A stretch of DNA of 64,000 nt from Kaistia soli DSM 19436. Its GTDB lineage: Bacteria; Pseudomonadota; Alphaproteobacteria; Rhizobiales; Kaistiaceae. Shown here piece by piece: positions 35,894 to 64,000 of the stretch. Positions within the stretch are counted from its first letter, which is position 1. Every line of letters begins with the position of its first letter. A program made the position numbers and the translations under genes. The stretch covers positions 868,001 to 932,000 of the forward strand of contig NZ_FQUP01000001.1 in assembly GCF_900129325.1 (NCBI RefSeq). Reading direction: 5' to 3'. The notes beneath the pieces were generated by a model. That model was given only the letters and a program-made list of their open reading frames with translations. It was not told the origin of the DNA and ran no database searches.

Positions 35894-36850
35894 TCAGGCG
35901 ACGTTCTTCATCAGGGCCACGAAATCCGCCTCGAAGCGCGCTCGGTCGATCGCCATGCAGACATTGGCATTGTGCAGCTCGTTGGCCGTACGGCGCCGAT
36001 CCGCGACGGTCTGGCCGCGCGTCAGTTCGCCATGCAGTTCGATGTCGACATACATCCGCTCCATCGTCGCGAGGCTTGGATCTTCGGCAATCGCCACGGC
36101 GAGCGGATCATGCAGCCCGCAGCCTTTGATGCCCGGATACATCGTCTTGTAGGAATTCACATAGAACTCGGTGATCTTCATCAGCGTCTGCGACGCCGGA
36201 TCGCCGGCCGCCACGATGTCGGCCATCATGTCGGTCGAGAGCAGCGTCGTCATGGTGACGTCCATGCCGACCAACGTCACATTGGCGCCGGCCTGTAGCA
36301 CGATATGCGCCGCCTCGGGGTCGTTGGCGAAATTGGCGTCGACCATCGGTGCGACGGGGCCGTGGATGCCCGGATGGAAAATCGTCGAGCCCATGATGAC
36401 GATGCCCTTGGCGAGCTTCGCGATCTCGGGCGCCTTGGTAAGCGCGAGCGCCACATTGGTGATCGGGCCAACCGGGACCAGCGTGATTTCGCCGGGATTC
36501 TCCTTGACGAGGCGGATCATCAGGTCGATCGCGTGCTCGTCGACCGCCTTGATCTTCGGCGTGGGCAGTTCGACATCGCCGAGGCCGTTGGAACCATGCA
36601 CATGGTCGGCCATGCGCTTGTAGGGGCGGATCAGCGATCGTCCGACGCCGGGCGCCACCGGGATTTCCGGCCGGCCGAGCAACTCGAGAATCTTCAGCGT
36701 GTTCTCGGTCGCGATCGACGTATCGGTATTGCCGAAGGTCGTGGTCAGCGCTTCGAGCTTAATGCCAGGGCGGCGCAGGGCATAGAAGATCGCCATGGCG
36801 TCGTCGATGCCTGTGTCGACGTCAAGAATGATGCGGCAGGGATCGGTCAT
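35894..36850 (-). CDS. Nucleoside hydrolase (inosine-uridine preferring type)
   Basis: A 318-residue N-ribohydrolase that splits imported nucleosides into base and ribose. The calcium-binding signature is LDVDTGIDDAMAIFYA at the N-terminus, followed by VPVGPITNVALAL and the C-terminal CGLHDPLAVAIAED containing the active-site histidine and aspartate. ATG 36848-36850 is the true start; the long open frame to 37327 lies over the permease gene. It follows a complete BMP-type nucleoside ABC importer, which fits a scavenging pathway. Base specificity cannot be read directly. Confidence 0.94.
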   Translation of the reverse strand: MTDPCRIILDVDTGIDDAMAIFYALRRPGIKLEALTTTFGNTDTSIATENTLKILELLGRPEIPVAPGVGRSLIRPYKRMADHVHGSNGLGDVELPTPKIKAVDEHAIDLMIRLVKENPGEITLVPVGPITNVALALTKAPEIAKLAKGIVIMGSTIFHPGIHGPVAPMVDANFANDPEAAHIVLQAGANVTLVGMDVTMTTLLSTDMMADIVAAGDPASQTLMKITEFYVNSYKTMYPGIKGCGLHDPLAVAIAEDPSLATMERMYVDIELHGELTRGQTVADRRRTANELHNANVCMAIDRARFEADFVALMKNVA

Positions 36851-36861
36851 GGCTGTCTTTC

Positions 36862-37782
36862 TCAAGGCGAGGCGGTGATGGTTGGGTCCTGGCGGCGGCG
36901 CCGCTTGGTATGGGTCAGCACCAATGCTACCAGCGTCACCACATAGGGTACGACGTCGGTGACCTGGTTGGGCAGGCCCTGCCCCTGCAGGCGCACCGAG
37001 AAGGCGTCGGCGAATCCGAACAGGACGCAGGCCAGCGCCGCATAAAGCGGATGATTGCGGCCGAGCATCACGGCGACGACGGCGATCCAGCCGCGCCCGG
37101 CGCTCATGTCCTCCGAAAAGATGCTGACCGTACCGAGCGAGAGTTGCGCCCCAGCAAGGCCGACGATGGCGCCGGCGACGAGCACGGTCACGATCCGGTA
37201 GCGCGTGACGTCGACGCCCATGGTCTCGGCCGCCTCGGCGTCCTCGCCGACGCCGCGAAGGCGCAGGCCGAGCGGCGTGCGGAACATCACGACCGTGACG
37301 ACCGCGACGAGGATCCAGGCGACCCATGTGAGCGCGGTCTGGCGCGAGAAGATCCAGCCAATCACCGGCCAGCCATTGATGGCGGCAATGCGGATCTTCT
37401 CCAGCCCGACAATGGCCGGGTCGCTGAACGTGCCGCTGACACCGAACATCTGGCGCAGCAGATAAGCCGTGAGCCCCGAGGCCAACAGGTTCATGCCGAC
37501 GCAGATGACGACCGCATCGCCGCGAAACACTGTGACGCCATAAGCGAGAATGAGCGAGAAGGCGACCGTCGCCAGCGTGGCTGCCGCGATGCCGCCGAGC
37601 GCACTCCCCGTCGCATAGGAGCCGACGACGGCGGCGAAGGCACCGACCAGCATCTGGCCCTCGAGCGCCATGTTGAAGACGCCGACGCGGCCGCAGAGCG
37701 TTCCGGCGAGGGCGGCCAGCAGGATCGGCGTGATCGCCTGCACGGCCGAATTGACGAGAAAGGGCGTGATGAAATCAAGCAT
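36862..37782 (-). CDS. Nucleoside ABC transporter permease (second subunit, NupQ/YufQ-like)
   Basis: A 306-residue inner-membrane permease of the branched-chain/nucleoside class (PF02653), with about eight to nine hydrophobic helices. LCGRVGVFNMALEGQMLVGAF near residue 30 is the family hallmark, and MGVDVTRYRIVTVLVAGAIVG the cytoplasmic coupling segment. It begins at 37780-37782, sharing one base with the stop of the other permease. The partner nucleoside hydrolase gene starts 11 bases downstream. Confidence 0.93.
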   Translation of the reverse strand: MLDFITPFLVNSAVQAITPILLAALAGTLCGRVGVFNMALEGQMLVGAFAAVVGSYATGSALGGIAAATLATVAFSLILAYGVTVFRGDAVVICVGMNLLASGLTAYLLRQMFGVSGTFSDPAIVGLEKIRIAAINGWPVIGWIFSRQTALTWVAWILVAVVTVVMFRTPLGLRLRGVGEDAEAAETMGVDVTRYRIVTVLVAGAIVGLAGAQLSLGTVSIFSEDMSAGRGWIAVVAVMLGRNHPLYAALACVLFGFADAFSVRLQGQGLPNQVTDVVPYVVTLVALVLTHTKRRRRQDPTITASP

Positions 37783-38816
37783 CAGCGCGTCTCCCGCCGC
37801 CGGCCGACGCCATGGCGGATGGCGAGGAAGAGAATGATGATCGACTGCAGCACCATGGTCAGCACGCGCGGGATCGACGTCTCGCGCTGCATGGCAAAGC
37901 CGCCGGTCTGCAGCGCCGCGAAAAAGGCGCCGGCGAGGATCGCGCCAAGCGGTTCGCCGCCGGCGAGGAGCGCCGCCATCAGGCCTGACCAAGTGTAGCC
38001 CGGCGAGAGCAGCGCGCCGTCCTGGAAGCGGAACTGCGAGCCGAGCACGATCAGCGCGCCGACGAGCCCGGCAATGGCGCCGCTCGCGAACATGACGCCG
38101 GTCATCTGGCGGGCTAGGGGCACGCCGCCATAGCCGGCGAAACGGGCATTGAGCCCGCGCATGCGCAGCTCATAGCCGCCGACCGTGAAGCGGTCATAGA
38201 GCACCACCAGCACGGCGACGACCAGCATGACCAGCAGGCCGGCATTGAGCGGACCGGAGAGGACCGGCAGCCGCGCCGCCTCGGGGATCATGGGAGTCTG
38301 CGCGAGACCCGTCGTGGTGTCGCGGAGCGGAAACCCGACGACATAGGAGCAAATGCCGATCGCCGGGTAGGAGAGCAGCAGGCTCGAGATCAGCATGGGG
38401 ATGCCATGCCGCGTCTCGCCCCAGGCAGCAATGGTCGCATAGAGACCGCTCGCCACCATCGCAGCGAGAATGGCGACGACGATCAGCAACGGTCCGGGAC
38501 CGGGGAGGTAGAGGGGTACGAGCGCCGCGACGAGCCCGCCGATCACCATCTGGCCGTCGCCGCCAAGATTGATCATCCCGCCGCGCAGCGGGATCGCGGC
38601 GACCAGCGTCATGCCGACCAGTGGAACGGCCCAGTTAAGCGTGTTCGGCAGGCTGTCCCAGGCCAGCGACCCAGTAACGATGGCGGCATAGGCCTCGACG
38701 GGGTTGCCGCCCGAGACCAGCACAAGCAGGCCGCCGAGAACGACGCCGACCAGGATCGCCAACGGCACGGGCGGTATGCGCAGCAGGCGCCGCATGGGGC
38801 GGGCAACGTCACTCAT
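37782..38816 (-). CDS. Nucleoside ABC transporter permease (first subunit, NupP/YufP-like)
   Basis: A 344-residue membrane permease of the same class. [20 protein letters not shown] near residue 80 corresponds to the 'GxxNxGxEGQ' signature, and [19 protein letters not shown] is the coupling loop. Its N-terminus ([16 protein letters not shown]) is cytoplasmic and basic. It lies 27 bases after the ATPase gene. With its partner it forms the heterodimeric channel of the BMP-type importer. Confidence 0.93.
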
Positions 38817-38843
38817 CGAACTTCCCGCCGGCCAGGTCTGCCA

Positions 38844-40385
38844 TCATGCCGCCTCCTGGACGCGGCCGGCCATCAGCAGGCCGAGCGCCTCCTCGGTCGC
38901 CGTCGCAGCGTCGACTTCCGCGAGGATGCGGCCCTCATACATCACCAGGATACGGTCGGCGAGCGCGAGGATCTCGGAAAGCTCAGCCGAGACGAGCAGC
39001 ACAGCGGCGCCGCGATCTCGCTCGGCGACAAGCTCCGAATGGATGAACTCGATCGCACCGACATCGACGCCGCGTGTCGGCTGCTCAGCGATCAGCAGCG
39101 GCGCCCGATGAGTCAGCTCGCGTGCGACGACGACCTTCTGAAGATTGCCGCCTGAAAGCGTGCCGACCGCCAGCTTCTCGGAGCCGATCTTGATGCCGAA
39201 GCGCGCGATCATCGCACGTGCCTCTGCGGCGAGCGCACGGCCATCGAGCAGGCCGCCCCGGGCGAGCGGCGGGTGGCGATGAAAACCCATGGCGAGATTG
39301 TCTGCCGCGCTCGCCGCGCGTGCCGTGCCGGTCACGGCACGATCCTCGGGGATATAAGCGAGACCGGCGACACGATGCGCGTCGACCCCGGCCGCCGTGA
39401 CGTCCTGGCCGGCGATCGAGACACGGCCACGAAAAGGTTGCCTCAGTCCGGCCAGCGCCTCGATCAGTTCGGTCTGGCCATTGCCGGCGACCCCGGCGAT
39501 GCCGACGATCTCTCCGCCCCGGACGGTCAGCGAAGCGCGATCGACCAACGGCCGGCCGTCGTCGGAGAGAACCGTCAAATCATCGGCGACCAGCACCGGC
39601 GCGCCGGGCGAGGCTGGTGCCTTCTCGACCTTGAGGTTGACGGCACGTCCGGTCATAGCGCGGATGATCTCGCGCGGCGAGGTTTCGGCGGTGACCATGC
39701 GCTCGACCACGCGGCCATCGCGCAGCACCGTCACACGGTCCGTGATCGTCATCACCTCGTGCAGCTTGTGCGTGACGAAGAGGATCGTGCGGCCGTCGGC
39801 GGCGAGATGGCGGATGACATCGAACAGCCCGTCGCGCTCTTGAGGGGTCAGAACAGCGGTCGGCTCGTCGAGAATGAGAATCTGCGCATCGCGATAGAGG
39901 GCCTTCAGGATTTCAACGCGCTGGCGCACGCCGACCGACAGGCTGCCGACGACGACCGTGGGATCAACCGCGAGCCGATAGCGCGCAGCGATCTCGCCGA
40001 CGCGCTCGATCGCCGCGCGGCGATCGATGAGCCCATGCCGGCTTGGCTCCATGCCATAGACGACATTTTCCCAGACCGTCAGCGAATTGAACAGCTTGAA
40101 GGCCTGGTGAACCATGCCCATGCCCTCGGCGATCGCATCGAGGGCAGAGCGGTATTCGACCCTGCGGCCGCGCATCAGGATCTCGCCAGCGTCGGGCTGC
40201 TGCAATCCATAGAGGATCGACATCAGCGTCGACTTGCCGGCGCCGTTCTCGCCCATGACGGCATGGACCTCGCCGCGCGCGACGACGAGGTCGACCCGAT
40301 CATTGGCGACGAGAGGGCCGTAGCGCTTGACGATGCCGCGCGCTTCGAGCTCGGCCACCGGCGTAACAACCGGCCCGGCCGTCAC
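38844..40385 (-). CDS. Nucleoside/sugar ABC transporter ATP-binding protein (double ATPase)
   Basis: A 513-residue protein with two ABC domains in tandem, as in RbsA/YufO. The first has Walker [15 protein letters not shown] near residue 45, signature [15 protein letters not shown] and Walker [14 protein letters not shown]. The second has a degenerate P-loop ([14 protein letters not shown]) but a normal signature ([15 protein letters not shown]) and [13 protein letters not shown]. One active and one altered site is usual for this group. It powers the two downstream permeases and lies 40 bases after the binding protein. Confidence 0.95.
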
Positions 40386-40425
40386 GACGGCACCCTCTGC
40401 ATGATGCTGCCTCTTGCTTCGCGCG

Positions 40426-41454
40426 TTACTTGGCGAGCTGCATCGGATCGGCGACCTTCAGCGTCCCTGCAACGATCTCGTCCCGCAGCGCCTTCACCTT
40501 GGCGAGAGCCTCGGGATATTCGGCAATGAGGCAGCCGGACGCCGCGACACCGGCCTCAAGGCCCGTCAGCGTCATGCCGCCCTCGGCGAGGCCGAGCGCC
40601 GCGACTTGCGGCTGGTCGCCCTTGGCAATGCCGGCGACGCCCTTCTCGATGACGACGTCAGTGCGCTTCTCGACATTGTCCATCACGGCGCCGGGCGCCT
40701 GCTTGCACTGGTTGACGTCGACGCCGAAGGCCGCGGCGCCATCGAGATCGCCAAGGCCCTTGAAGATGCCGCCATTCGAGCCGGCGCCAGCCGCCATCAC
40801 CCGATCGACATCATCGGAAACCAGAACGGCTGCGCGCTGCTGGCCGCGTGCCGGATCGGAGAAGGGATTGTTGCCGCCGATCCACAGCGTTTCAGCCGTC
40901 TGGACGTCCGGCTTGACGTGCTTGGCACCGGCGAGGAACGGATCGGTGTAGCGATGCAGAAACGGAATATCGAGCGCGCCGATCGCACCAACCTTGCCGG
41001 TCTTGGTGGTGAGACCCGCTTCAGCGCCGGCGAGGAAGGTCGCCTCATATTCGCGGAACACCGAGCAGTAGATATTCGGAGCGAGCGTCTGCGGGCAGCT
41101 GTCGACCAGGAGGAACTTCGTCTCGGGGTTGGCCTTGGCCACCTCCGGCAGCACGTCGTTGAACTCGAACCCAACCGCGACGACGACGCCTGCCTCCTTG
41201 GCAGCCGCCTCGAGATTCTGGCGGATCGTGGTCGGGTCCGTGCTCTCATAGGCCTTGGCTGTGCCGCCGAGGGCCGCCGCTGCCTTCTCGGTGCCGGTCT
41301 TGGCGAGCTTCAGGAAGTCGTTGACCCCGATCGGATTGGGCGAGACGAAGACGACGAGCTTCGGGTCGGCAGCAGCAGCCGGCTGCGCCACCAGCGCCGA
41401 GACGGCCAGGACCATCGCCGCACCGCTCATCATCAGGCCTTGAAACTTCATCAC
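40426..41454 (-). CDS. BMP family periplasmic nucleoside-binding protein
   Basis: A 342-residue binding protein with a Sec signal peptide (cleavage near AQPAAAA-DP) and a BMP/PnrA-like domain beginning LVVFVSPNPIGVNDFLKLAK. EAAAKEAGVVVAVGFEFNDVL and GKVGAIGALDIPFLHRYTDPF are typical of the group that binds purine nucleosides. It is the first gene of the minus-strand operon and divergent from the SDR gene, with 123 bases between. The nucleoside hydrolase in the operon supports a nucleoside ligand. Confidence 0.93.
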   Translation of the reverse strand: MMKFQGLMMSGAAMVLAVSALVAQPAAAADPKLVVFVSPNPIGVNDFLKLAKTGTEKAAAALGGTAKAYESTDPTTIRQNLEAAAKEAGVVVAVGFEFNDVLPEVAKANPETKFLLVDSCPQTLAPNIYCSVFREYEATFLAGAEAGLTTKTGKVGAIGALDIPFLHRYTDPFLAGAKHVKPDVQTAETLWIGGNNPFSDPARGQQRAAVLVSDDVDRVMAAGAGSNGGIFKGLGDLDGAAAFGVDVNQCKQAPGAVMDNVEKRTDVVIEKGVAGIAKGDQPQVAALGLAEGGMTLTGLEAGVAASGCLIAEYPEALAKVKALRDEIVAGTLKVADPMQLAK

Positions 41455-55411: not shown

Positions 55412-55759
55412 ATGACGACCATCACCCGGATCGAGAGCGGCCCGCGCATGAGCCAGGCCGTGGTTTATGGCGATCTGGTCTATCTTGCCGGTCAGGTTGG
55501 CGAGGGCGACGACGTCGCCGCACAGACCCAGTACGCCCTTGCCGAAGTCGATCGCCTGCTCGCGCTGGCCGGATCCAGCAAGGCCCGCATTCTCTCGGCG
55601 ACGATCTGGCTCGCCGACATGGCGGATTTCGCGGCGATGAACTCCGTTTGGGACGTCTGGGTCGATAAGGCCAATCCGCCGGCGCGCGCCACCGGCGAGG
55701 CGAAGCTCGCCGCGCCGAAATACAAGGTTGAGATCATCATCGTCGCCGCCAAGGGCTGA
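55412..55759 (+). CDS. RidA/YjgF family enamine/imine deaminase
   Basis: A 115-residue protein of the Rid family that hydrolyses reactive enamines and imines released by amino-acid enzymes. GDLVYLAGQVGEG near residue 20, and the key arginine (PARATGEAKL) with the glutamate 15 residues later (YKVEIIIVAAKG), match the catalytic Arg105 and Glu120 positions of E. coli RidA. It is preceded by AGGAGAG. No pyridoxal enzyme is adjacent. Its end lies 43 bases from the stop of the convergent VIT-type gene. Confidence 0.93.
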   Translation: MTTITRIESGPRMSQAVVYGDLVYLAGQVGEGDDVAAQTQYALAEVDRLLALAGSSKARILSATIWLADMADFAAMNSVWDVWVDKANPPARATGEAKLAAPKYKVEIIIVAAKG

Positions 55760-56530: not shown

Positions 56531-56708
56531 CTGATAGCGCATTGCAGGTGGATTGTCGCTTGTTCTTTAAATTGGCGACGGATTGCCGCGGGACACCTCT
56601 TGCCGATCTGCCTTTAAAACGGACATGATCAAGCATTGTGCGACCTTGCTGTGTCGCGCACGCCAACGGCCATTTTGCCGCCTTGGGAACAACTCTCCGG
56701 AGCCGGGC

Positions 56709-58190
56709 TTGCCTCTCGATTATTCCGCACTTTCATCGGGCGAATCCGCCCTCGCTGACCTGACCGAGGCGGCCCGCGCCGACATCGCCGCACTGGCCTA
56801 TCCCGACAAGGCTTGGGTGAAGCCGGTTTCCGGTCCCGACGGCGATGCGGCGGCCGATGTGCTCATTGTCGGCGGTGGGCAGTCCGGGTTGACGATCGCG
56901 GCGGCGCTCCGCCGTGAGGGCATCGCCAATGTCGTCGTGCTCGACCAGGCTCCGGCCGGAGCCGAGGGCCCGTGGGTGACCTTTGCCCGCATGCCGGAGC
57001 TGAGGACCCCGAAGATTACGGTCGGGATGGATTTCGGCATCCCCAATCTCGGCGTACGGCGCTGGTTCGAGACGCGCTATGGCAGAGACGCCTGGACGTC
57101 GCTGATCCGTCTGCCACGCACCGACTGGATGGATTATCTCAACTGGTACCGCGCCGTCTGGGCGATCGATGTCGAGAATAGCACCGTCGTGACCGACATT
57201 GCTGATGCCGGTGGCCTCGTTAGGGTCACAGCGCGCCAGAACGGTGCCGAGAGCATCCGCTATGCAAAGCTCGTCGTGCTCGCCACCGGCTCCGATGGCG
57301 CCGGCGCTTGGCGCGTGCCCGATTTCATCACGGCCGCCCTGCCGCCGGATCGTTATGACCACTCAAACCAGCCGATCGATTTCACGCGCTTGAAGGGGAA
57401 GGCGATCGGCATTCTCGGCCACGGCGCCTCGGCCTTCGACACCGCGGTCGCCGCGCTCGAAGCCGGCGTCGCCTCGGTGGATCTGTGCTTCCGACGTGCC
57501 CGCCTGCCACGCGTCAATCCGCACCGCTATATCGAAAATGCGGGCATCATGACCCATCATCCCCTCCTCGATGACACGGTGCGGTGGCGGATCGCGCGGC
57601 ATTTCCGCTTGAATGACCAGCCGCCCGCCTGGGCAAGCTTCGAGCGCGCGATCGCCATGCCAGGATTCCGCATGCATGCCGGCTCGCCCTGGCTCGACAT
57701 GGCGCTGGAAGACGGGCGCATCCGCGTCACCACGCCCGCCACGGTGCTCCATTTCGATCACGTCATTCCCGCGACCGGACAGGTCATCGACCTCGCCGCG
57801 CGGCCGGAACTCAACTCACTGCATGACCTCGTCGCGCGATGGCAGGACCGCTTCGTGCCACCGCCGGAAGAGGCCGATGCGGGGCTCGGCCAGTTGCCTT
57901 ATCTCGGCGACGGCTACGAGATGCTGCCGCGAGATCCCGGCGGACCGGACTGGGTGACGCGCGTCCATGCCTTCAACGCGCTGTCGACAGTCAGCCAGGG
58001 ACCGCACTCGACCTCGATTTCGGGCCATCGCCATGCTCTGCCCCGTCTGGTGCGCGGCCTGACGCGCCGGCTGCTGCTGGACCAACAGCATGAACTGATC
58101 GCGGGGCTTGAGGCCTATGCCGACCAGGATCTGCCGCTGCCGGACGACTTTGAGGCGGCGCTGGCGCTGAATGGCGGCCGGCCCGCCTGA
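56709..58190 (+). CDS. FAD/NAD(P)-dependent oxidoreductase (flavin monooxygenase-like)
   Basis: A 493-residue flavoprotein. ADVLIVGGGQSGLTIAAALR near residue 50 is the FAD Rossmann motif, and AIGILGHGASAFDTAVAALE near 225 is a second, NAD(P)-like motif, the arrangement of flavin-containing monooxygenases. VLATGSDG and HVIPATGQVID correspond to the ATG-type segments. A TTG start at 56709 with GGAG seven bases before is preferred; the frame is open to 56583 but the extra part looks non-coding. It precedes two PF06684 genes on the same strand and may oxidise a substrate whose product they act on. Confidence 0.85.
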   Translation: MPLDYSALSSGESALADLTEAARADIAALAYPDKAWVKPVSGPDGDAAADVLIVGGGQSGLTIAAALRREGIANVVVLDQAPAGAEGPWVTFARMPELRTPKITVGMDFGIPNLGVRRWFETRYGRDAWTSLIRLPRTDWMDYLNWYRAVWAIDVENSTVVTDIADAGGLVRVTARQNGAESIRYAKLVVLATGSDGAGAWRVPDFITAALPPDRYDHSNQPIDFTRLKGKAIGILGHGASAFDTAVAALEAGVASVDLCFRRARLPRVNPHRYIENAGIMTHHPLLDDTVRWRIARHFRLNDQPPAWASFERAIAMPGFRMHAGSPWLDMALEDGRIRVTTPATVLHFDHVIPATGQVIDLAARPELNSLHDLVARWQDRFVPPPEEADAGLGQLPYLGDGYEMLPRDPGGPDWVTRVHAFNALSTVSQGPHSTSISGHRHALPRLVRGLTRRLLLDQQHELIAGLEAYADQDLPLPDDFEAALALNGGRPA

Positions 58191-58319
58191 CGACATTCGC
58201 AAAAAGATCGAGATGCAGCCGCCGCTTTCTTGACAGCGTGAGCCGTGCGAAAGATTGTTGATGGTCTAACAATCTCGGTTGCAGACGCGTGTTCTGCTCC
58301 CGCATGCGAGGAAGGCTCG

Positions 58320-58904
58320 ATGCCCGAAATCAAGGTTCGCAAATTCGTGACGGTGGTCGAGGAAATCCTGCACGAAGGAGGTCCACCCGCCGCCGTCCCG
58401 CCGCGCCGGGCCGTTGTCGCGGCCGTGATCGAGAACCCTTACGCCGGGGCCTATGTCGAGGACATTGTCGGGCTGATGGATGACCTGAAGCCGCTTGGCC
58501 TGGAGATGGCAACGCGCCTCGTCAAGGCGCTGGGCGGTGACGCCGCCGTTGTCGAAGGCTATGGCAAGGGCGCGATCATCGGCGAGGCGGGCGAGCTGGA
58601 GCATGGCGCGCTGTGGCACAATCCCGGCGGCTATGCGATGCGCGAGCTGCTCGGCGGCGCCAAGGCGATCGTCCCCTCGGCCAAGAAGGTCGGCGGACTC
58701 GGCACCAAGATCGACATCCCGATCACCCATATCAACGCCTCCTATGTGCGCAGCCATTTCGACGCCATCGAGATCGGCATCGGTGACGCCCCCCGGCAGA
58801 ACGAGATGGTGCTGATCCTCGCGATGACCACGGGTCCGCGCGTGCATGCGCGCGTCGGCGGCCTCGCGGCAGCGGACATCAAGGCCGGGGATGGCCTCCG
58901 GTGA
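58320..58904 (+). CDS. PF06684 (DUF1185) 'amino acid synthesis' family protein, copy 1
   Basis: A 194-residue protein (MPEIKVRKFVTVVEEILHEG) of the PF06684 family, whose known structures have a trimeric chorismate-mutase/YjgF-like fold and whose chemistry is not established. Conserved segments seen: AAVIENPYAGAYVEDI, YGKGAIIGEAGELEHGAL, IVPSAKKVGGLGTKIDIPI and HARVGG. The ATG at 58320 follows GAGGAAGG; the frame open to 58245 is less likely. It overlaps its paralogue by 4 bases. Nearby amidases suggest action on a cyclic amide or related compound, which is inference. Confidence 0.93.
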   Translation: MPEIKVRKFVTVVEEILHEGGPPAAVPPRRAVVAAVIENPYAGAYVEDIVGLMDDLKPLGLEMATRLVKALGGDAAVVEGYGKGAIIGEAGELEHGALWHNPGGYAMRELLGGAKAIVPSAKKVGGLGTKIDIPITHINASYVRSHFDAIEIGIGDAPRQNEMVLILAMTTGPRVHARVGGLAAADIKAGDGLR

Positions 58905-59485
58905 GCCCGCGCATCCGCAAGATCGTCACCATCCTCGAGGAAACGCTGATCGAGGAAGGCCGCGCGGTCGCAAAGCCGACGCGCCGCGCCGCGGCACTCG
59001 CTGTCATCGAGAACCCGTTCGCCGGTTCCTATGTCGAGGATCTCGGGGAATTGTTCGACGCCGGCGAGGAACTCGGCGCCCTGCTCGGCGCGCGCGCCGC
59101 GGCGGCGCTCGGCATCGACCCGACTGAAGTCGAGAGCTTTGGCAAGGCGACGGCGATTGGCGCCGATGGCGGACTGGAGCATGGTGCAGCATTGATGCAT
59201 CCAAAGCTCGGCGCACCGCTGCGCGCCCTGCTTGGCAAGGGGGCGGCGCTGATCCCCTCCTCAAAGAAGCGCGTCGGCCCTGGCGCGACCTTCGACATTC
59301 CGCTCGGCCACAAGGATGCGGCGCGTGTGCGCAGCCATTTCGACGGTATGGAAGTGCGGATCGCCGATGCGCCGCGCGCCGACGAGATCGTCGTCGCGGT
59401 TGCACTGACCGATTCCGGCCGGCCCCACCCGCGCGTGGGCGGGCTGAAGAAGGAAGACGTCAAGGGCGAGGACGGGCTGCGCTGA
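58901..59485 (+). CDS. PF06684 (DUF1185) 'amino acid synthesis' family protein, copy 2
   Basis: A 194-residue paralogue of the preceding protein, the same length, with matching segments LAVIENPFAGSYVEDL, FGKATAIGADGGLEHGAA, LIPSSKKRVGPGATFDIPL and HPRVGG. It begins with GTG at 58901, overlapping the first copy's stop. Two different copies in one operon suggest either a heteromer or two related substrates. Its stop lies 9 bases from that of the convergent ketopantoate-reductase-like gene. Confidence 0.93.
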   Translation: MSPRIRKIVTILEETLIEEGRAVAKPTRRAAALAVIENPFAGSYVEDLGELFDAGEELGALLGARAAAALGIDPTEVESFGKATAIGADGGLEHGAALMHPKLGAPLRALLGKGAALIPSSKKRVGPGATFDIPLGHKDAARVRSHFDGMEVRIADAPRADEIVVAVALTDSGRPHPRVGGLKKEDVKGEDGLR

Positions 59486-59494
59486 GAGCGCTGC

Positions 59495-60418
59495 CTACCG
59501 CGCAGCCTCGGGGGCGTCCTCCGGCCTTGCGGCGGCGCGCTCGCGCAACCTGACGAGCAGTAGCAGCGCGCGATTGACCGGCGTCGCGACGCCGAGCGCA
59601 GCTCCCTTGGTGACGATATAACCGTTCAGATGGTCGATCTCGGTCGGCCGGCCACGGGCGAGATCCAGCGCGGTCGACGACATCTGACCTTTCATCGTCG
59701 CGGCGATGGCACGCACCTGTGGCCAGAGGTCGTCTGGCAACGAGACGCCTACCGCCGCGGCCACCGCGCCGCATTCGTCGACGACGTCGCGCATCATATC
59801 GGTGACGCCCGGCTCGCCAATGAAACTGCCATAGGGAAGTCCGGCGATCGCCGAGATCGCGTTATAGGCGCAGTTGATCACGAGCTTGGTCCAGAGCGCG
59901 GTCGCAACGTCGCGTGAGACGGTCACGGGCAGGCCGGCCTCCGTGAAGGCGGCGGCGTACACGTCATTACCGGGTCCGGGCTCGACGATCAGTTCGCCGC
60001 GCCCGTGATGGCGCACATGGCCGGGACCCGCCATCCCGGCCGCCACATAGACGACGCTGGCGCTGACGGGCCGGCCAAGCGTTCTCGCCAGCCGTTCGGC
60101 ATTGTCGACGCCGTTCTGCAGGCTCCAGATCGCCGTCTCGCTGCGCAGATGCGGGCGCAGGGTCTCGCCGGCAGGCTCTGTATCGGTCGATTTCACGCAG
60201 AAGAGGACGAGATCCGCCTCAGTGACCGCGGCGGGATCCTCCGTGGCGGCGAGATGCACGCGATGCCGGCCGTCGGCGCGCTCGATCAGCAGTCCGTCAC
60301 GCCGGATCGCCTCGACATGCAGCGGTCGCGCGATCAGTGTCACCGCGTGCCCGGCTAGAGCCATCATCCCACCGAAATAGCAGCCGACCGCTCCGGCGCC
60401 CATGACGACGATGCGCAT
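59495..60418 (-). CDS. Ketopantoate reductase-like dehydrogenase (ApbA/PanE family)
   Basis: A 307-residue NAD(P)H-dependent enzyme. The N-terminal MRIVVMGAGAVGCYFGGMMA is the nucleotide-binding motif; the catalytic lysine is in ALWTKLVINCAYNAISAIAG near residue 180, and IDHLNGYIVTKGAALGV carries the C-terminal substrate residues. PanE reduces 2-dehydropantoate, but members in catabolic operons act on other 2-oxo or formyl acids. A GGGAGGAAAC site precedes the ATG at 60416-60418. It is the last gene of the enamidase operon, so reduction of the ring-opened product is plausible. The true substrate is unknown. Confidence 0.9.
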   Translation of the reverse strand: MRIVVMGAGAVGCYFGGMMALAGHAVTLIARPLHVEAIRRDGLLIERADGRHRVHLAATEDPAAVTEADLVLFCVKSTDTEPAGETLRPHLRSETAIWSLQNGVDNAERLARTLGRPVSASVVYVAAGMAGPGHVRHHGRGELIVEPGPGNDVYAAAFTEAGLPVTVSRDVATALWTKLVINCAYNAISAIAGLPYGSFIGEPGVTDMMRDVVDECGAVAAAVGVSLPDDLWPQVRAIAATMKGQMSSTALDLARGRPTEIDHLNGYIVTKGAALGVATPVNRALLLLVRLRERAAARPEDAPEAAR

Positions 60419-60492
60419 GTTTCCTCCCTCGAACACTCTTCGCGAGATCGATCATAGCGCAGGCCGGAGGACTGGCGACCGCCGAAGGATTG

Positions 60493-61689
60493 CTACGAGA
60501 CCACCTTCGCCATGCTGGCGGCCGGCGGGGTGTTGCGCGAGCGTTGGGTGCGCACGACGCCGTCGATCACCGTCATCGAGATGCCGGGAATATCTCCGAG
60601 TCTGACGGCTTCCAGCAGCGTCGCACCGGCCGAGTGCTGCGGCTTGTCCATCAGCACGAAATCGGCGGCGCGACCCACCTCGATCAACCCGCAATCAAGG
60701 TCACGCATTCGCGCCGTGTTGCCGGTCGCGAAGCAGAAGGCAATCTCCGGCGCGACATTGCCGAGCGAAGACAGCATCGACACCATTCGCATGATGCCAA
60801 GCGGTTGAACGCCTGAGCCCGCCGGTGCGTCGGTGCCAAGGATGATGCGGTCAAGCTGGCCAAGCTCGCGCGCCGTGTTCAGCGCGAGCAGCGCCGCGCG
60901 CATATTGCCGTTATGGACCAATTCGAGGCCGCGGCCGCATCCCTCGCAGAGGCAGACGATATCGCCGTCCGGCAGCGCGGTCGGACCGCCATTCACATGG
61001 CCGATGACGTCGGTGTCGGCGGCGAGCACGACGTCCTTGTCGATGAGGCCCGATCCCGGGATCGACGGACCGCCAGTGTGGATCGTCGAGATGATGCCGT
61101 ATTTCCGCGCCCAGCCGACCATCTGGCGCGCCGTCTCGCCATCCTTGACCGAGCCAAGGCCGACTTCGCCGAGCATCGTGACGCCGGCCGCGGCAAGCTC
61201 GCGGAAATCCTCCTCGATCATGCCCTTCTCGATCACCGGCGCGCCGGCGTGAACCTTTACGCCCGAGGGGCTGAAAGCCGAGAAGGTGCGCTGCGCCGCG
61301 ATCGCCAGCGCCTTGAGGCCGACAATGTCGGTCGGGCGGCCGGGCGTGTGCACTTCGCCGGCCGAAATCAGCGTGGTGACGCCGCCATGCAGGCCGGAAT
61401 CGATCCAGCCGATCTGGTTCTGACGCGGCGTCCAGTCGCCAGCGACCGGATGGACATGACTGTCGATGAGGCCGGGCGTCAGCGTCGAGCCATGCGCGTC
61501 GATCCGCGTCGTCGCGCCTTCGAGATCGAGATCGGCCCTGCGCCCGAAGGCTGTGATCCGGCCGTTCTCGGCGATGATCGTATCGGCATCGAGGATCGGG
61601 CGCCCGAGATCGCCGGAAAGGACGAGGCCGATATTCTCGATGACGAGCTTGGTCGGACCCTCGCTCTCAGTCGGGGCATCGTGGCTCAT
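60493..61689 (-). CDS. Enamidase-like metal-dependent amidohydrolase
   Basis: A 398-residue cytoplasmic amidohydrolase. Metal-binding motifs in order: GLIDSHVHPVAGDWTPRQ near residue 75, MLGEVGLGSVKDGE, IHTGGPSIPGSG, HVNGGPTALPDG, and GTDAPAGSGVQPLGI. These match, in order and wording, my recollection of the Eubacterium barkeri enamidase that opens 6-oxo-1,4,5,6-tetrahydronicotinate to 2-formylglutarate; the C-terminal RSRNTPPAA is also shared. AAAGGA precedes the ATG. It is flanked by a MarR regulator and a ketopantoate-reductase-like gene. The family is firm; the substrate is inferred. Confidence 0.88.
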   Translation of the reverse strand: MSHDAPTESEGPTKLVIENIGLVLSGDLGRPILDADTIIAENGRITAFGRRADLDLEGATTRIDAHGSTLTPGLIDSHVHPVAGDWTPRQNQIGWIDSGLHGGVTTLISAGEVHTPGRPTDIVGLKALAIAAQRTFSAFSPSGVKVHAGAPVIEKGMIEEDFRELAAAGVTMLGEVGLGSVKDGETARQMVGWARKYGIISTIHTGGPSIPGSGLIDKDVVLAADTDVIGHVNGGPTALPDGDIVCLCEGCGRGLELVHNGNMRAALLALNTARELGQLDRIILGTDAPAGSGVQPLGIMRMVSMLSSLGNVAPEIAFCFATGNTARMRDLDCGLIEVGRAADFVLMDKPQHSAGATLLEAVRLGDIPGISMTVIDGVVRTQRSRNTPPAASMAKVVS

Positions 61690-61770
61690 GGGGGTCCTTT
61701 CGGTCGGTCACGCGATGGTGTCAAAACGGCAGGCAAGAGCACTCGCCTCGCCAGGTCCTCGTTGCGGCTT

Positions 61771-62316
61771 TCAGGCGTCCGGCTGGTCGTCGGCGTCAGC
61801 GATGCGCGACAGCATTTCCATGAACAGCGCGCGCTCGCTCGGCTTCAGCGGCGCCAGCACGCGGCGGCCGACCTCGACGCTTTTCGCGAGCAAGGGCAGC
61901 GTATATTCGACGCCCTTCTCGGAGAGACGGATCATCGAGAGGCGCTGGTCATCGGGCGAGGCATAGCGCTCGACGAAGCCGTGTTTGGAAAGCTTGCGGA
62001 TGACGATGCTGATCGTGGACGGATCCATCGCCGTCAGCCGGCCAAGCTGGTTCTGCGAGACCTCGCCATGCTTCATGATCGTGGCCAATGCCGCCATCTG
62101 GGTCGGCGTCAGGTCATGCTCGCCCAGGACCTCCTGGAACCGCATCGTAGCGCGCTGGTGGGCGCGGCGGATGATATGGGCCGGATGGACCGCAAGCTCA
62201 TAGCCGGTCGAGTCGAAGAGATCGCGGTGCGTCGCCTTCGCTGCGGCCGATCGGGTCTGCATCGGCTCGCCGTCAAGGCTCAGCATTCCCCCGTCTGCTT
62301 CATCATCCGATGCCAT
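61771..62316 (-). CDS. MarR family transcriptional regulator
   Basis: A 181-residue winged-helix regulator. The DNA-binding part shows LTPTQMAALATIMKHGEVSQ, then LGRLTAMDPSTISIVIRKL and the wing RYASPDDQRLSMIRLSEKG. The N-terminal extension of about 40 residues is longer than usual. MarR regulators often respond to aromatic acids. It lies in the middle of the operon, 32 bases after the isochorismatase-type gene and 81 bases before the enamidase-like gene; the 81-base gap could hold an operator. Confidence 0.94.
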   Translation of the reverse strand: MASDDEADGGMLSLDGEPMQTRSAAAKATHRDLFDSTGYELAVHPAHIIRRAHQRATMRFQEVLGEHDLTPTQMAALATIMKHGEVSQNQLGRLTAMDPSTISIVIRKLSKHGFVERYASPDDQRLSMIRLSEKGVEYTLPLLAKSVEVGRRVLAPLKPSERALFMEMLSRIADADDQPDA

Positions 62317-62348
62317 CCAGCCGGTCTCCTTCTAGTCTGGACGCGGCC

Positions 62349-62993
62349 TCAGGCCGCGATCTGCTGATTGTCGATCACCTGGCCCGACGTCAGGGCGGCG
62401 ACCACGGAGGCCGCGTCGCTCACAACCCCGAAATGGGTGGCGATGTCGTAGAGGGTCGATTCCTGCTCGCGCGGGCCGGTCGCAGCGCAGCAATCACGCG
62501 GGACGACGACCTCATAGCCGTTGAAGAAGGCGTCGTGAACCGTCGATCGCACGCAGATATTGGTGACGACGCCGAATACGACCAGCTGGTCGACCAGCAT
62601 GTCCTTCAGCACGAGATCGAGGTCGGTCTGGAAGAAGCTCGAATAGCGATGCTTGATGACGTGGATCTCGTCCTCGCGCGCGCCGAGATCTTCGATGATC
62701 TCCGTCGCCCAGGTGCCCTCGACGCCATGCGGCGTGCGCTTCAGATATTCGCGGTCGCGGCGCATGTTGCGGCGATGGCTGTCATGCACCCAGATCACCG
62801 GCGCGCCGACCTTGCGCGCCGCCTCGATGACCTGAAGCTGCGGGCCGACCAGCACCTCATAGCCCGGCAGCACCATCCGGCCGCCCGGCTTGCAGAATTC
62901 GTTGATCATGTCGACCACGATCACGGCGGTGCACGCCGGATCGAGCCGCGCCTGCTCGGGATTGTTATGGGCCGAGAACACATCGACGGACAT
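62349..62993 (-). CDS. Cysteine hydrolase, isochorismatase/nicotinamidase family
   Basis: A 214-residue amidase-like hydrolase with the full catalytic triad: Asp28 in VIVVDMINEF, Lys in VIKHRYSSFFQTDLD and Cys in VVTNICVRSTVHDAF, including the conserved cis-peptide before TN. Members hydrolyse nicotinamide, maleamate, N-carbamoyl compounds or ureidoacrylate. The metal-binding residues that mark true nicotinamidases are not clearly visible. It follows the nucleoside hydrolase by 26 bases. A role in releasing ammonia or a carbamoyl group in the pathway is likely. Confidence 0.93.
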   Translation of the reverse strand: MSVDVFSAHNNPEQARLDPACTAVIVVDMINEFCKPGGRMVLPGYEVLVGPQLQVIEAARKVGAPVIWVHDSHRRNMRRDREYLKRTPHGVEGTWATEIIEDLGAREDEIHVIKHRYSSFFQTDLDLVLKDMLVDQLVVFGVVTNICVRSTVHDAFFNGYEVVVPRDCCAATGPREQESTLYDIATHFGVVSDAASVVAALTSGQVIDNQQIAA

Positions 62994-63019
62994 CAGGGGT
63001 TCTCCTCTGTGGTTTGGCT

Positions 63020-63976
63020 TCAGTCCCGAAGCAGGCTGTAAAGCAATTCAAAGAAACGGTCGGAATCGACTTCCGTGCAGATATCGGCGTTGTCGGGCAG
63101 ACCGCGCTCCTTCCAGAAGTCGGCGACCGTCGCCCCGAACGCATAGGTCCCTGCAAGATCGACGCCGATATGCGCCGGCCGCGTGCGCACCAGGGTCGGA
63201 TCGATGATCAGCGCCAGCGCCAGCGGGTCATGCAGCGCGCCGCCGACGCCCATCGAGTTGCGATGCAGCTTTTCGTAGAACAGCAGCCAGTCGTTGACGA
63301 CGCGGCCGAGCTCGGTGTCGATCTTGCGGAATTCCGCATATTGCGGCTCCTCGACCAGCACCTGCATGGTGACGTCGAGGCCGACCATGGTCAGCTTGAT
63401 GCCGCTGTCGAGCACGATCTTCAGCGCCTCGGGATCGCAGAAGGCGTTGAACTCGGTCGGCGTGATGATCTCGCTCTTGCGATAGAAGACGCCGCCCATC
63501 CAGGTGACGTCTTTGATCTTCGGCAGCAGCTCGGGATATTTCAGCACGAAGAGGCCGATATTGCAGAGCGGCCCGGTCGCGACGATGCGCAGCGGCTCGT
63601 CCTGCTCGCGCAGCGTCTTGGCGATGAAGTCGACCGCATGCATCGGCTCGAGCGTCTTGGTCGCCATCGGCAGATAGGGCGAGCCCTCGAGGCCGCTCGG
63701 GCCATCGGCGGTGCCGAGGACCAGAGGGCGTGCGAGAGGCCGATAGCAGCCGGCCGCGACGGGAACATCGCCGGCGCCGATGAACTCCAGGATGCGCAGC
63801 GTATTGGAGACGCATTTGTCGAGCTCGGCATTACCGCAGGTGACGGTGACACCGAGAAGATCGATGGCCTTCGAGCGATGCGCCATCACCAGCGCGATGG
63901 CATCGTCATGGCCTGGATCGCAGTCGAGGATGATCGGCGTGGGGCGCGCAGGGGCAGTGGCTGTCATGGTCATCAT
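63020..63976 (-). CDS. Nucleoside hydrolase (second copy)
   Basis: A 318-residue N-ribohydrolase. LDCDPGHDDAIALVMAH is the calcium-binding signature, then VATGPLCNIGLFVL and GGALHDPLALALIID with the active-site histidine. It is only moderately similar to the other nucleoside hydrolase in this window. Starts at 63976, 63973 and 63967 are possible; GAGGG fits the first two. As the first complete gene of the enamidase operon it suggests the substrate reaches the pathway as a nucleoside. Confidence 0.94.
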   Translation of the reverse strand: MMTMTATAPARPTPIILDCDPGHDDAIALVMAHRSKAIDLLGVTVTCGNAELDKCVSNTLRILEFIGAGDVPVAAGCYRPLARPLVLGTADGPSGLEGSPYLPMATKTLEPMHAVDFIAKTLREQDEPLRIVATGPLCNIGLFVLKYPELLPKIKDVTWMGGVFYRKSEIITPTEFNAFCDPEALKIVLDSGIKLTMVGLDVTMQVLVEEPQYAEFRKIDTELGRVVNDWLLFYEKLHRNSMGVGGALHDPLALALIIDPTLVRTRPAHIGVDLAGTYAFGATVADFWKERGLPDNADICTEVDSDRFFELLYSLLRD

Positions 63977-63983
63977 CCGTCCC

Positions 63984-64000
63984 TCAGGCCGCCTTGTAGA
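63984..64000 (-). CDS. C-terminal end of an upstream gene (partial)
   Basis: Only the last codons (reading YKAA and a TGA stop at 63984-63986) lie in the window. The spacing of a few bases to the nucleoside hydrolase start fits an operon. No identity can be given. Confidence 0.3.

Follow-up and report, generated by a model that had tools for sequence, protein, structure and literature searches.

The window analysed here is a stretch of 64,000 nucleotides of the Kaistia soli DSM 19436 genome (G000:C4:868001-932000, in a genome of 5.23 Mb); close to its end, and running on beyond it, lies a gene cluster built around an amidohydrolase of the enamidase family (ENA; 60493-61689, minus strand). Judged by sequence and gene context, this cluster is probably, if by no means certainly, a nucleoside-fed front end set on the ring-opening back end of the 6-oxo-1,4,5,6-tetrahydronicotinate (THON) branch, followed by passage through glutarate. 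In the proposed scheme, a BMP-type ABC transporter would import an N-riboside, two nucleoside hydrolases (NH1 and NH2) would strip the sugar from it, an isochorismatase-fold amidase (ISO) would remove the ring carboxamide, and an extended short-chain dehydrogenase/reductase (xSDR), together with a further short-chain dehydrogenase/reductase (SDR), would convert the base into the 6-oxo lactam, the roles of the last two being guessed. ENA would then open the lactam to yield 2-(aminomethylene)glutarate or 2-formylglutarate, on which proteins of the AA_synth family might act by enamine hydrolysis or decarboxylation (also a guessed role), and the carbon would exit via glutarate and glutaryl-CoA. 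We infer that THON is the entry point of this nucleoside-fed route.

Among PDB chains, the best match of ENA is the Eubacterium barkeri enamidase 2VUN, over the full length and at E 1.4e-110, the next best being found at E 1.7e-07; identity is 47% (180/384 aligned residues). The residues that we take to bind metal in 2VUN (His-x-His, a bridging Glu, two His and an Asp) are H67, H69, E164, H193, H220 and D276, with which H78, H80, E175, H204, H231 and D287 of ENA align, all six unchanged. The search of characterised structures and the ligand alignment thus uphold the enamidase-like character proposed in the preliminary description, and a grouping with hydantoinases, there named as the finding that would speak against it, did not emerge from the sequence search (which has no tree with hydantoinases behind it). 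According to the portion of the source available, the E. barkeri enzyme opens and deaminates the THON ring to give 2-formylglutarate (PMC9304392), and the window ENA is predicted to open the same 6-oxo-tetrahydronicotinate lactam.

The cluster was compared with its relatives across 99 loci, which comprise the window region, 18 loci taken from relatives by place and 80 loci on named contigs (the best 80 out of the 262 relatives found), and which include two duplicates (L050 and L091), counted in the tallies, and several short loci. Gene calls in the fetched loci come from a GC-frame heuristic, by which starts may be misplaced and genes missed; the cut-offs were 40% of the query length and, for the more general families, 38% identity. 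On this basis, 52 loci carry 6-hydroxynicotinate reductase (HNR) or a Mo-hydroxylase (MoH) near ENA, 10 carry NH1 or NH2 (nucleoside-type; nine distinct genomes), seven carry a glutaryl-CoA-dehydrogenase-like gene (GCDH-type; six distinct genomes) and 30 none of these. HNR matches no Pfam or NCBIfam model; among public plasmid records, the entries that it matches frequently bear the annotation ‘6-hydroxynicotinate reductase’. NH1 and NH2 occur in 0/52 HNR/MoH-type loci. The ENAs of these 52 loci are 66-81% identical to that of the window, and the six-ligand set is complete in all 52 rows, as it is in 10/10 nucleoside-type and 7/7 GCDH-type rows. A MarR gene is present in 10/10 nucleoside-type and 7/7 GCDH-type loci, with one duplicate inside each count. 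As a separate observation, two distant enamidase relatives (L029 in G031 and L030 in G046; 43-45% identity) have Lys in place of the bridging Glu, and in L030 the first His of the HxH motif is changed as well, to Gln; both adjoin an AA_synth gene, with Mo-hydroxylase genes or an HpaB-type gene nearby.

A modular picture of the system emerges when the ring openers are compared. In a collection of 72,556 plasmid records, NH2 (E 1e-60), ISO (E 1e-50) and xSDR (E 1e-50) match exactly the same seven records, six of Sinorhizobium medicae and one of Rhizobium rhododendri, all with HyuA and none with ENA on the record; in the two read in detail (L210 and L211), HyuA and HyuB lie near AA_synth. The same exchange is seen in HNR clusters devoid of ENA, arranged as hnr-UPF0280-AA_synth-AA_synth-hyuA-hyuB in Neorhizobium and as Hnr-UPF0280-AA_synth-HyuAB in Pleomorphomonas, with three further such loci (five read in all). 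Of 26 plasmid records with HNR, 16 have an ENA of at least 60% identity and the other 10 a HyuA of at least 58%, with zero overlap. HyuA at this level occurs in 17 plasmid records, 10 with HNR and seven with the nucleoside module; the 58% line was set after the gap to the next HyuA match (45.5%) had been seen, and ENA rows below 60% (9/25 records, 38-46%), none of them with HNR, were excluded from the two-by-two tally. The plasmid records that carry one front end or the other, 33 in all, thus divide into 16 with reductase and enamidase, 10 with reductase and HyuAB, and seven with nucleoside module and HyuAB; the window supplies the fourth combination, nucleoside module and enamidase, and all four pairings exist. 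This suggests a modular picture in which one back end, consisting of ring opener and AA_synth, would be fed either by hydroxylase and reductase or by the nucleoside module, the opener being either an enamidase or HyuAB, and in which it is most economical to take the same lactam as the substrate of both openers and both front ends.

The AA_synth genes behave as part of this back end. Two lie beside the minus-strand operon and face it: AAs1 (58245-58904, plus strand; PF06684, 242 bits), a copy of which is present in all seven plasmid loci (L210-L216), and AAs2 (58901-59485, plus strand; PF06684, 232 bits; 2QTP at E 2.2e-78), which is found in 49/52 HNR/MoH-type, 9/10 nucleoside-type and 7/7 GCDH-type loci. 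As AA_synth stays with ENA or HyuAB under any front end, its action most likely follows ring opening, which is the role predicted for AAs2. In the part of the literature source at hand, AA_synth/DUF1185 is so far tied to amino-acid metabolism by fold and context only (PMC2954203). UPF0280, an ApbE-like protein, is distributed differently: it accompanies HNR, not ENA, being found in 48/52 HNR/MoH-type loci and in neither nucleoside-type (0/10) nor GCDH-type loci (0/7), and may be needed for the flavin of the reductase.

The front end of the published route appears to be lacking in the window genome. A conserved nicotinate cluster with 6-hydroxynicotinate reductase and THON has been described, with THON continuing via glutarate in Azorhizobium, as far as the accessible text of that report extends (PMC3511419). 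A whole-genome search of G000 gave no HNR match at E 0.001, and HNR was found in 4/31 genomes searched (G008, G017, G031 and G037), among which G008 is the only one of the 14 of the same genus, all 14 of which possess ENA. The cluster Mo-hydroxylase has seven match stretches in G000, the best 33% identical, as compared with orthologues of 60% in G017 and 53% in G031. In the absence of HNR and of a close hydroxylase, therefore, nicotinate cannot reach ENA by known enzymes, and on the evidence of its sequence the known nicotinate route cannot run in G000. The nicotinate-pathway part of the preliminary description is thus weakened as to the steps that precede ring opening, whereas the placing of the ring opener at 6-oxo-tetrahydronicotinate is still favoured by the comparison of loci.

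A different entry is suggested by the nucleoside hydrolases. NH1 (63020-63976, minus strand; PF01156 (IU_nuc_hydro), 288 bits; RihA 3g5i at E 2.1e-62) has a complete catalytic motif, with both the Ca-binding Asp motif and the His of the HDP motif kept. NH2, only the 3′ end of which lies inside the window (63984-64000, minus strand), runs on to C4:932991 (L010:1984-2991, window-equivalent 63984-64991) and, in 40/40 locus copies (seven partial) from 18 genomes, carries Asp where the catalytic His is expected, the Asp ligands being retained wherever the copy covers them. In the section of the source available, nicotinamide riboside is cleaved by Urh1, an enzyme of the nucleoside hydrolase fold, and the pyridinium group that leaves would not be expected to require protonation (PMC11241417); a His-less NH2 would therefore fit a pyridinium-type riboside, by analogy, and it is as possible that NH2 is a non-catalytic partner.

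The same chemistry would suit one of the alternatives, namely that ordinary nicotinamide or nicotinate riboside is imported and converted to nicotinate by the nucleoside hydrolases and ISO, with a non-homologous hydroxylase and reductase encoded elsewhere then providing THON for ENA. The seven Mo-hydroxylase match stretches of G000 could be taken in its favour; however, no hydroxylase or HNR gene is labelled at the nucleoside-type loci read, and HNR is missing in 13/14 same-genus genomes, all of which keep ENA, so that this explanation is regarded as rather doubtful.

Of the redox enzymes, only xSDR and SDR accompany the cluster repeatedly in different lineages. Orthologues of xSDR (at least 57%) were found in 19 of 24 genomes tested, the exceptions being G006 (fragmented), G018, G123, G031 and G037, and in each of the 19 they lie within approximately 15 kb of ISO, as read from coordinates. 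SDR adjoins xSDR in 11 lineages or genomes (the window genome, G002, G003, G007, G008, G010, G112, G229, G266, S. medicae and R. rhododendri); it was not seen there in the loci of G017 or G022 that were read. The nearest PDB entry to xSDR is 4ID9, and uronate dehydrogenases, which oxidise a hemiacetal carbon, are also matched; as a guide to the substrate, the fold proved uninformative, the model having a pLDDT of 61.8 (seven sequences) and its matches being general extended SDRs. An oxidation of 6-hydroxy-tetrahydronicotinamide to the lactam by xSDR would be analogous to the reaction of the uronate dehydrogenases, and that the nucleoside is a riboside of NAD(P)H in hydrated or oxidised form is a guess along these lines. 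A more specific and tentative version of the scheme would thus be a dedicated catabolism of damaged NAD(P)H, in which the riboside derived from NAD(P)HX is imported, ribose is removed, xSDR oxidises the 6-hydroxy compound to the lactam, ISO deamidates it and the enamidase or HyuAB opens the ring. Hydration of NAD(P)H to ring-hydroxylated and cyclic forms is described in the part of PMC11715087 that was available; no catabolic pathway of this kind was found in the searches made of the open-licence literature.

An operon with sugar ABC transporter, IolE-like and Gfo/Idh genes, followed in most cases by xSDR and SDR, adjoins the module in the other Kaistia loci read and in G015, G022, G112 and R. 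rhododendri, and is not next to it in the loci read of G008, G229, G266 and S. medicae. This linkage suggests an unusual glycoside and speaks for the possibility that the base, some other small lactam or imide not derived from nicotinamide, is opened by ENA or HyuAB incidentally; HyuAB and isochorismatase-type amidases also build hydantoin pathways. Such an explanation is unlikely, the recruitment of a nicotinate-type ENA on two branches and the shared AA_synth indicating the same lactam. In the ENA tree, the Kaistia terrae-type (GCDH-type) ENAs group with those of HNR loci (support 98/95); a single clade uniting the nucleoside-type and GCDH-type ENAs of Kaistia, a group chosen after the tree had been seen, is rejected (p-AU 0.013), and a single clade of all nucleoside-type ENAs is weakly rejected (p-AU 0.0375). 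From the 97 rows of the first tree, 22 were dropped for a second (near-copies, the duplicates L050 and L091, and the long branches L048, L049 and L087), to which five others were added; L081, L106 and L112, among the 99 loci, are in neither, as no ENA gene was called there. These trees suggest repeated recruitment of ENA out of nicotinate clusters. The sole ENA (E 1e-40) in each of G008, G229 and G266 sits in the nucleoside locus, with HNR elsewhere in the genome, and HyuAB was not found in their fetched loci, to which the search for it was confined.

ISO (62349-62993, minus strand; PF00857, 149 bits) is predicted to remove the ring carboxamide. Its triad D28, K114 and C147, the full Asp-Lys-Cys set reported at the outset, is supported by alignment with RutB, the PDB chains of which with altered Asp or Cys deviate at exactly these columns. 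D71, H73 and H89 are invariant in 9/9 aligned sequences (ISO and eight relatives) and form a D-x-H...H set that presumably resembles the nicotinamidase metal site. The likeness to RutB led to the weighing of a Rut-like pyrimidine route, in which uridine would give uracil, ENA would produce ureidoacrylate, ISO would act as RutB does, AA_synth or RidA would hydrolyse the aminoacrylate and the ApbA/PanE-family reductase of the operon (KPR) would reduce the malonic semialdehyde. In favour of such a route, the top NCBIfam models are RutB for ISO (119.5 bits against a cutoff of 378) and pyrimidine hydrolases for NH1, neither score reaching its cutoff, and a RidA-like gene lies at 55412-55759. It was set low, as very improbable, after the exchange of ENA for HyuAB had been seen in HNR and nucleoside clusters alike, and in view of the kinship of the window ENA with enamidases beside HNR or Mo-hydroxylase; furthermore, D71, H73 and H89 face N, G and Q of RutB in the alignment, and KPR and RidA were not found at the nucleoside-type loci read outside Kaistia, no search for Rut genes having been made.

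The association of nucleoside hydrolase, amidase and ring opener suggested in the preliminary description has been kept in several lineages, though the order of the genes has changed. A survey of 397 genomes from the order gave orthologues of ISO (E 1e-60) in 18 and of NH2 (E 1e-70) in 16, all inside the 18, the ISO-positive genomes without NH2 being G017 and G123; chance association is therefore unlikely, with hypergeometric values of 1e-26 when genomes are counted and 5e-8 when genera are, figures that are inflated by shared descent, 11 of the 16 genomes belonging to one genus. NH2 is present in 14/14 same-genus genomes. The recurrent set consists of the BMP transporter, NH2, NH1, ISO, MarR, AAs1 and xSDR, and the module genes are rearranged but together in the loci of L210, L211, G112, G229 and G266. 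That the nucleoside genes form a general salvage unit placed beside the enamidase cluster by accident, as the 14 nucleoside hydrolase matches in the genome and the separate locus of the nucleoside hydrolase/transporter operon in the Kaistia terrae group might suggest, is hardly credible when NH2 orthologues occur only in ISO genomes (16/16) and the gene set is constant between families while its order varies.

Several observations weigh against the proposed nucleoside-fed THON route. No documented natural source of a THON riboside was found in the open-licence literature searched. ISO has its nearest PDB relatives in 3HB7 and RutB rather than in nicotinamidases. The nucleoside hydrolase/transporter operon of the Kaistia terrae group lies at another place than ENA (read in G001, G010 and G012). 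HNR is encoded elsewhere in 4/12 genomes with a nucleoside-type ENA locus (G008, G112, G229 and G266), which disproves the idea that such genomes always lack it; those without are G000, G003, G004, G005, G007, G013, G015 and G022. The plasmid tally covers one replicon per strain, not the chromosome, and G123 has HyuAB in an HNR/Mo-hydroxylase locus (L180:1915-5837) and ENA at another, so that the two openers are not mutually exclusive within a genome, as had been considered. The sole ENA of G008, G229 and G266 does not prove a sole lactam opener, the search for HyuAB, Rut and pyrimidine genes not having been genome-wide. As for the exit through glutaryl-CoA, the two genes beside ENA in the Kaistia terrae group that support it are weakly labelled, both below NCBIfam cutoffs: the CoA-transferase scores 596 bits with the succinate-glutarate model (cutoff 750) and the acyl-CoA dehydrogenase 221 bits with the glutaryl-CoA model (cutoff 470). 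A glutaryl-CoA-type dehydrogenase is present in 15/15 genomes tested (in G000 at C4:863732-864952), and may belong to general metabolism.

One step put forward at the start was abandoned. KPR (59495-60436, minus strand; PF02558/PF08546; TIGR00745 at 271 bits, cutoff 141) had been proposed to reduce 2-formylglutarate, as does the 2-(hydroxymethyl)glutarate dehydrogenase of E. barkeri, which we take to be of the beta-hydroxyacid dehydrogenase family; in the profile search KPR matched ApbA/PanE models and no beta-hydroxyacid dehydrogenase family at E 0.001. Since it is present in only 4/14 distinct nucleoside-type loci and was not found in the other 10 (20-28 kb read per locus), among them a locus whose ENA is 96% identical to that of the window, it is not counted as core and is probably an accessory outside the core system.

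The five minus-strand genes first described stand in position and family, as judged by open reading frame calls and Pfam/NCBIfam profiles; the remaining one is the MarR-family regulator (61771-62316; PF01047, 53.5 bits). The set is real but incomplete, in that the operon extends past the window and the two PF06684 genes at 58245-59485 had gone uncounted. Past the window end, the rest of NH2 is joined on the same strand, at close spacing, by genes for two permeases, an ATPase and a binding protein of the BMP family, all four lying upstream of NH2. The AA_synth pair beside the operon and the two dehydrogenases (xSDR and SDR) approximately 13 kb away are parts of the system.

Among the surrounding genes, a FAD/NAD(P)-binding monooxygenase-like gene (56583-58190, plus strand) adjoins the AA_synth pair and is found in 4/9 distinct Kaistiaceae nucleoside-type loci. 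Divergent from the BMP operon, L010:8196-16263 (window-equivalent 70196-78263) holds a sugar ABC transporter, IolE-like and IolG-like genes, a third nucleoside hydrolase and two SDR genes; by analogy, these genes might constitute an oxidative deglycosylation set. A second nucleoside hydrolase and ABC transporter cluster (35894-41454, minus strand) comprises two permeases, an ATPase and a binding protein, and adjoins an SDR and an aldehyde-dehydrogenase-like gene, all families except the nucleoside hydrolase being assigned by eye.

An interchangeable front end and interchangeable ring openers for what is apparently one lactam make gene function predictable across many soil bacteria, and they link UPF0280 with the side of the reductase and AA_synth/DUF1185 with a step that follows THON. 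If it were true that the nucleoside is a remnant of hydrated NAD(P)H, the cluster would represent a route that consumes the damaged cofactor instead of repairing it.

Each component can be set against a known system. NH1 resembles the RihA/UriH-type nucleoside hydrolases in every motif residue and NH2 in the aspartates, NH2 departing from them by the Asp at the position of the catalytic His. ISO shares the Asp-Lys-Cys triad of the isochorismatase fold with RutB, N-carbamoylsarcosine amidase and nicotinamidase, and differs in being overall nearest to 3HB7 and RutB yet equipped with the D-x-H...H set. The HyuAB hydantoinase/oxoprolinase pair of the Neorhizobium and Pleomorphomonas HNR clusters holds the same ring-opener place beside AA_synth and belongs to another protein family than ENA, which it replaces in the nucleoside clusters of S. 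medicae and R. rhododendri. The E. barkeri enamidase is like the window ENA along the whole length and at the six ligand positions, the bridging Glu included; unlike it, the latter is found beside nucleoside hydrolases, an amidase and AA_synth, in a genome without an HNR match. Finally, as far as the available part of its description goes, the aerobic nicotinate/THON cluster of Azorhizobium, Bradyrhizobium and relatives (PMC3511419) differs from the window type, whose locus lacks Mo-hydroxylase, reductase and UPF0280 and has instead the BMP transporter, NH1, NH2, ISO, xSDR and SDR, while the two have in common the enamidase-family, AA_synth and MarR genes and, in all likelihood, the route through glutarate.

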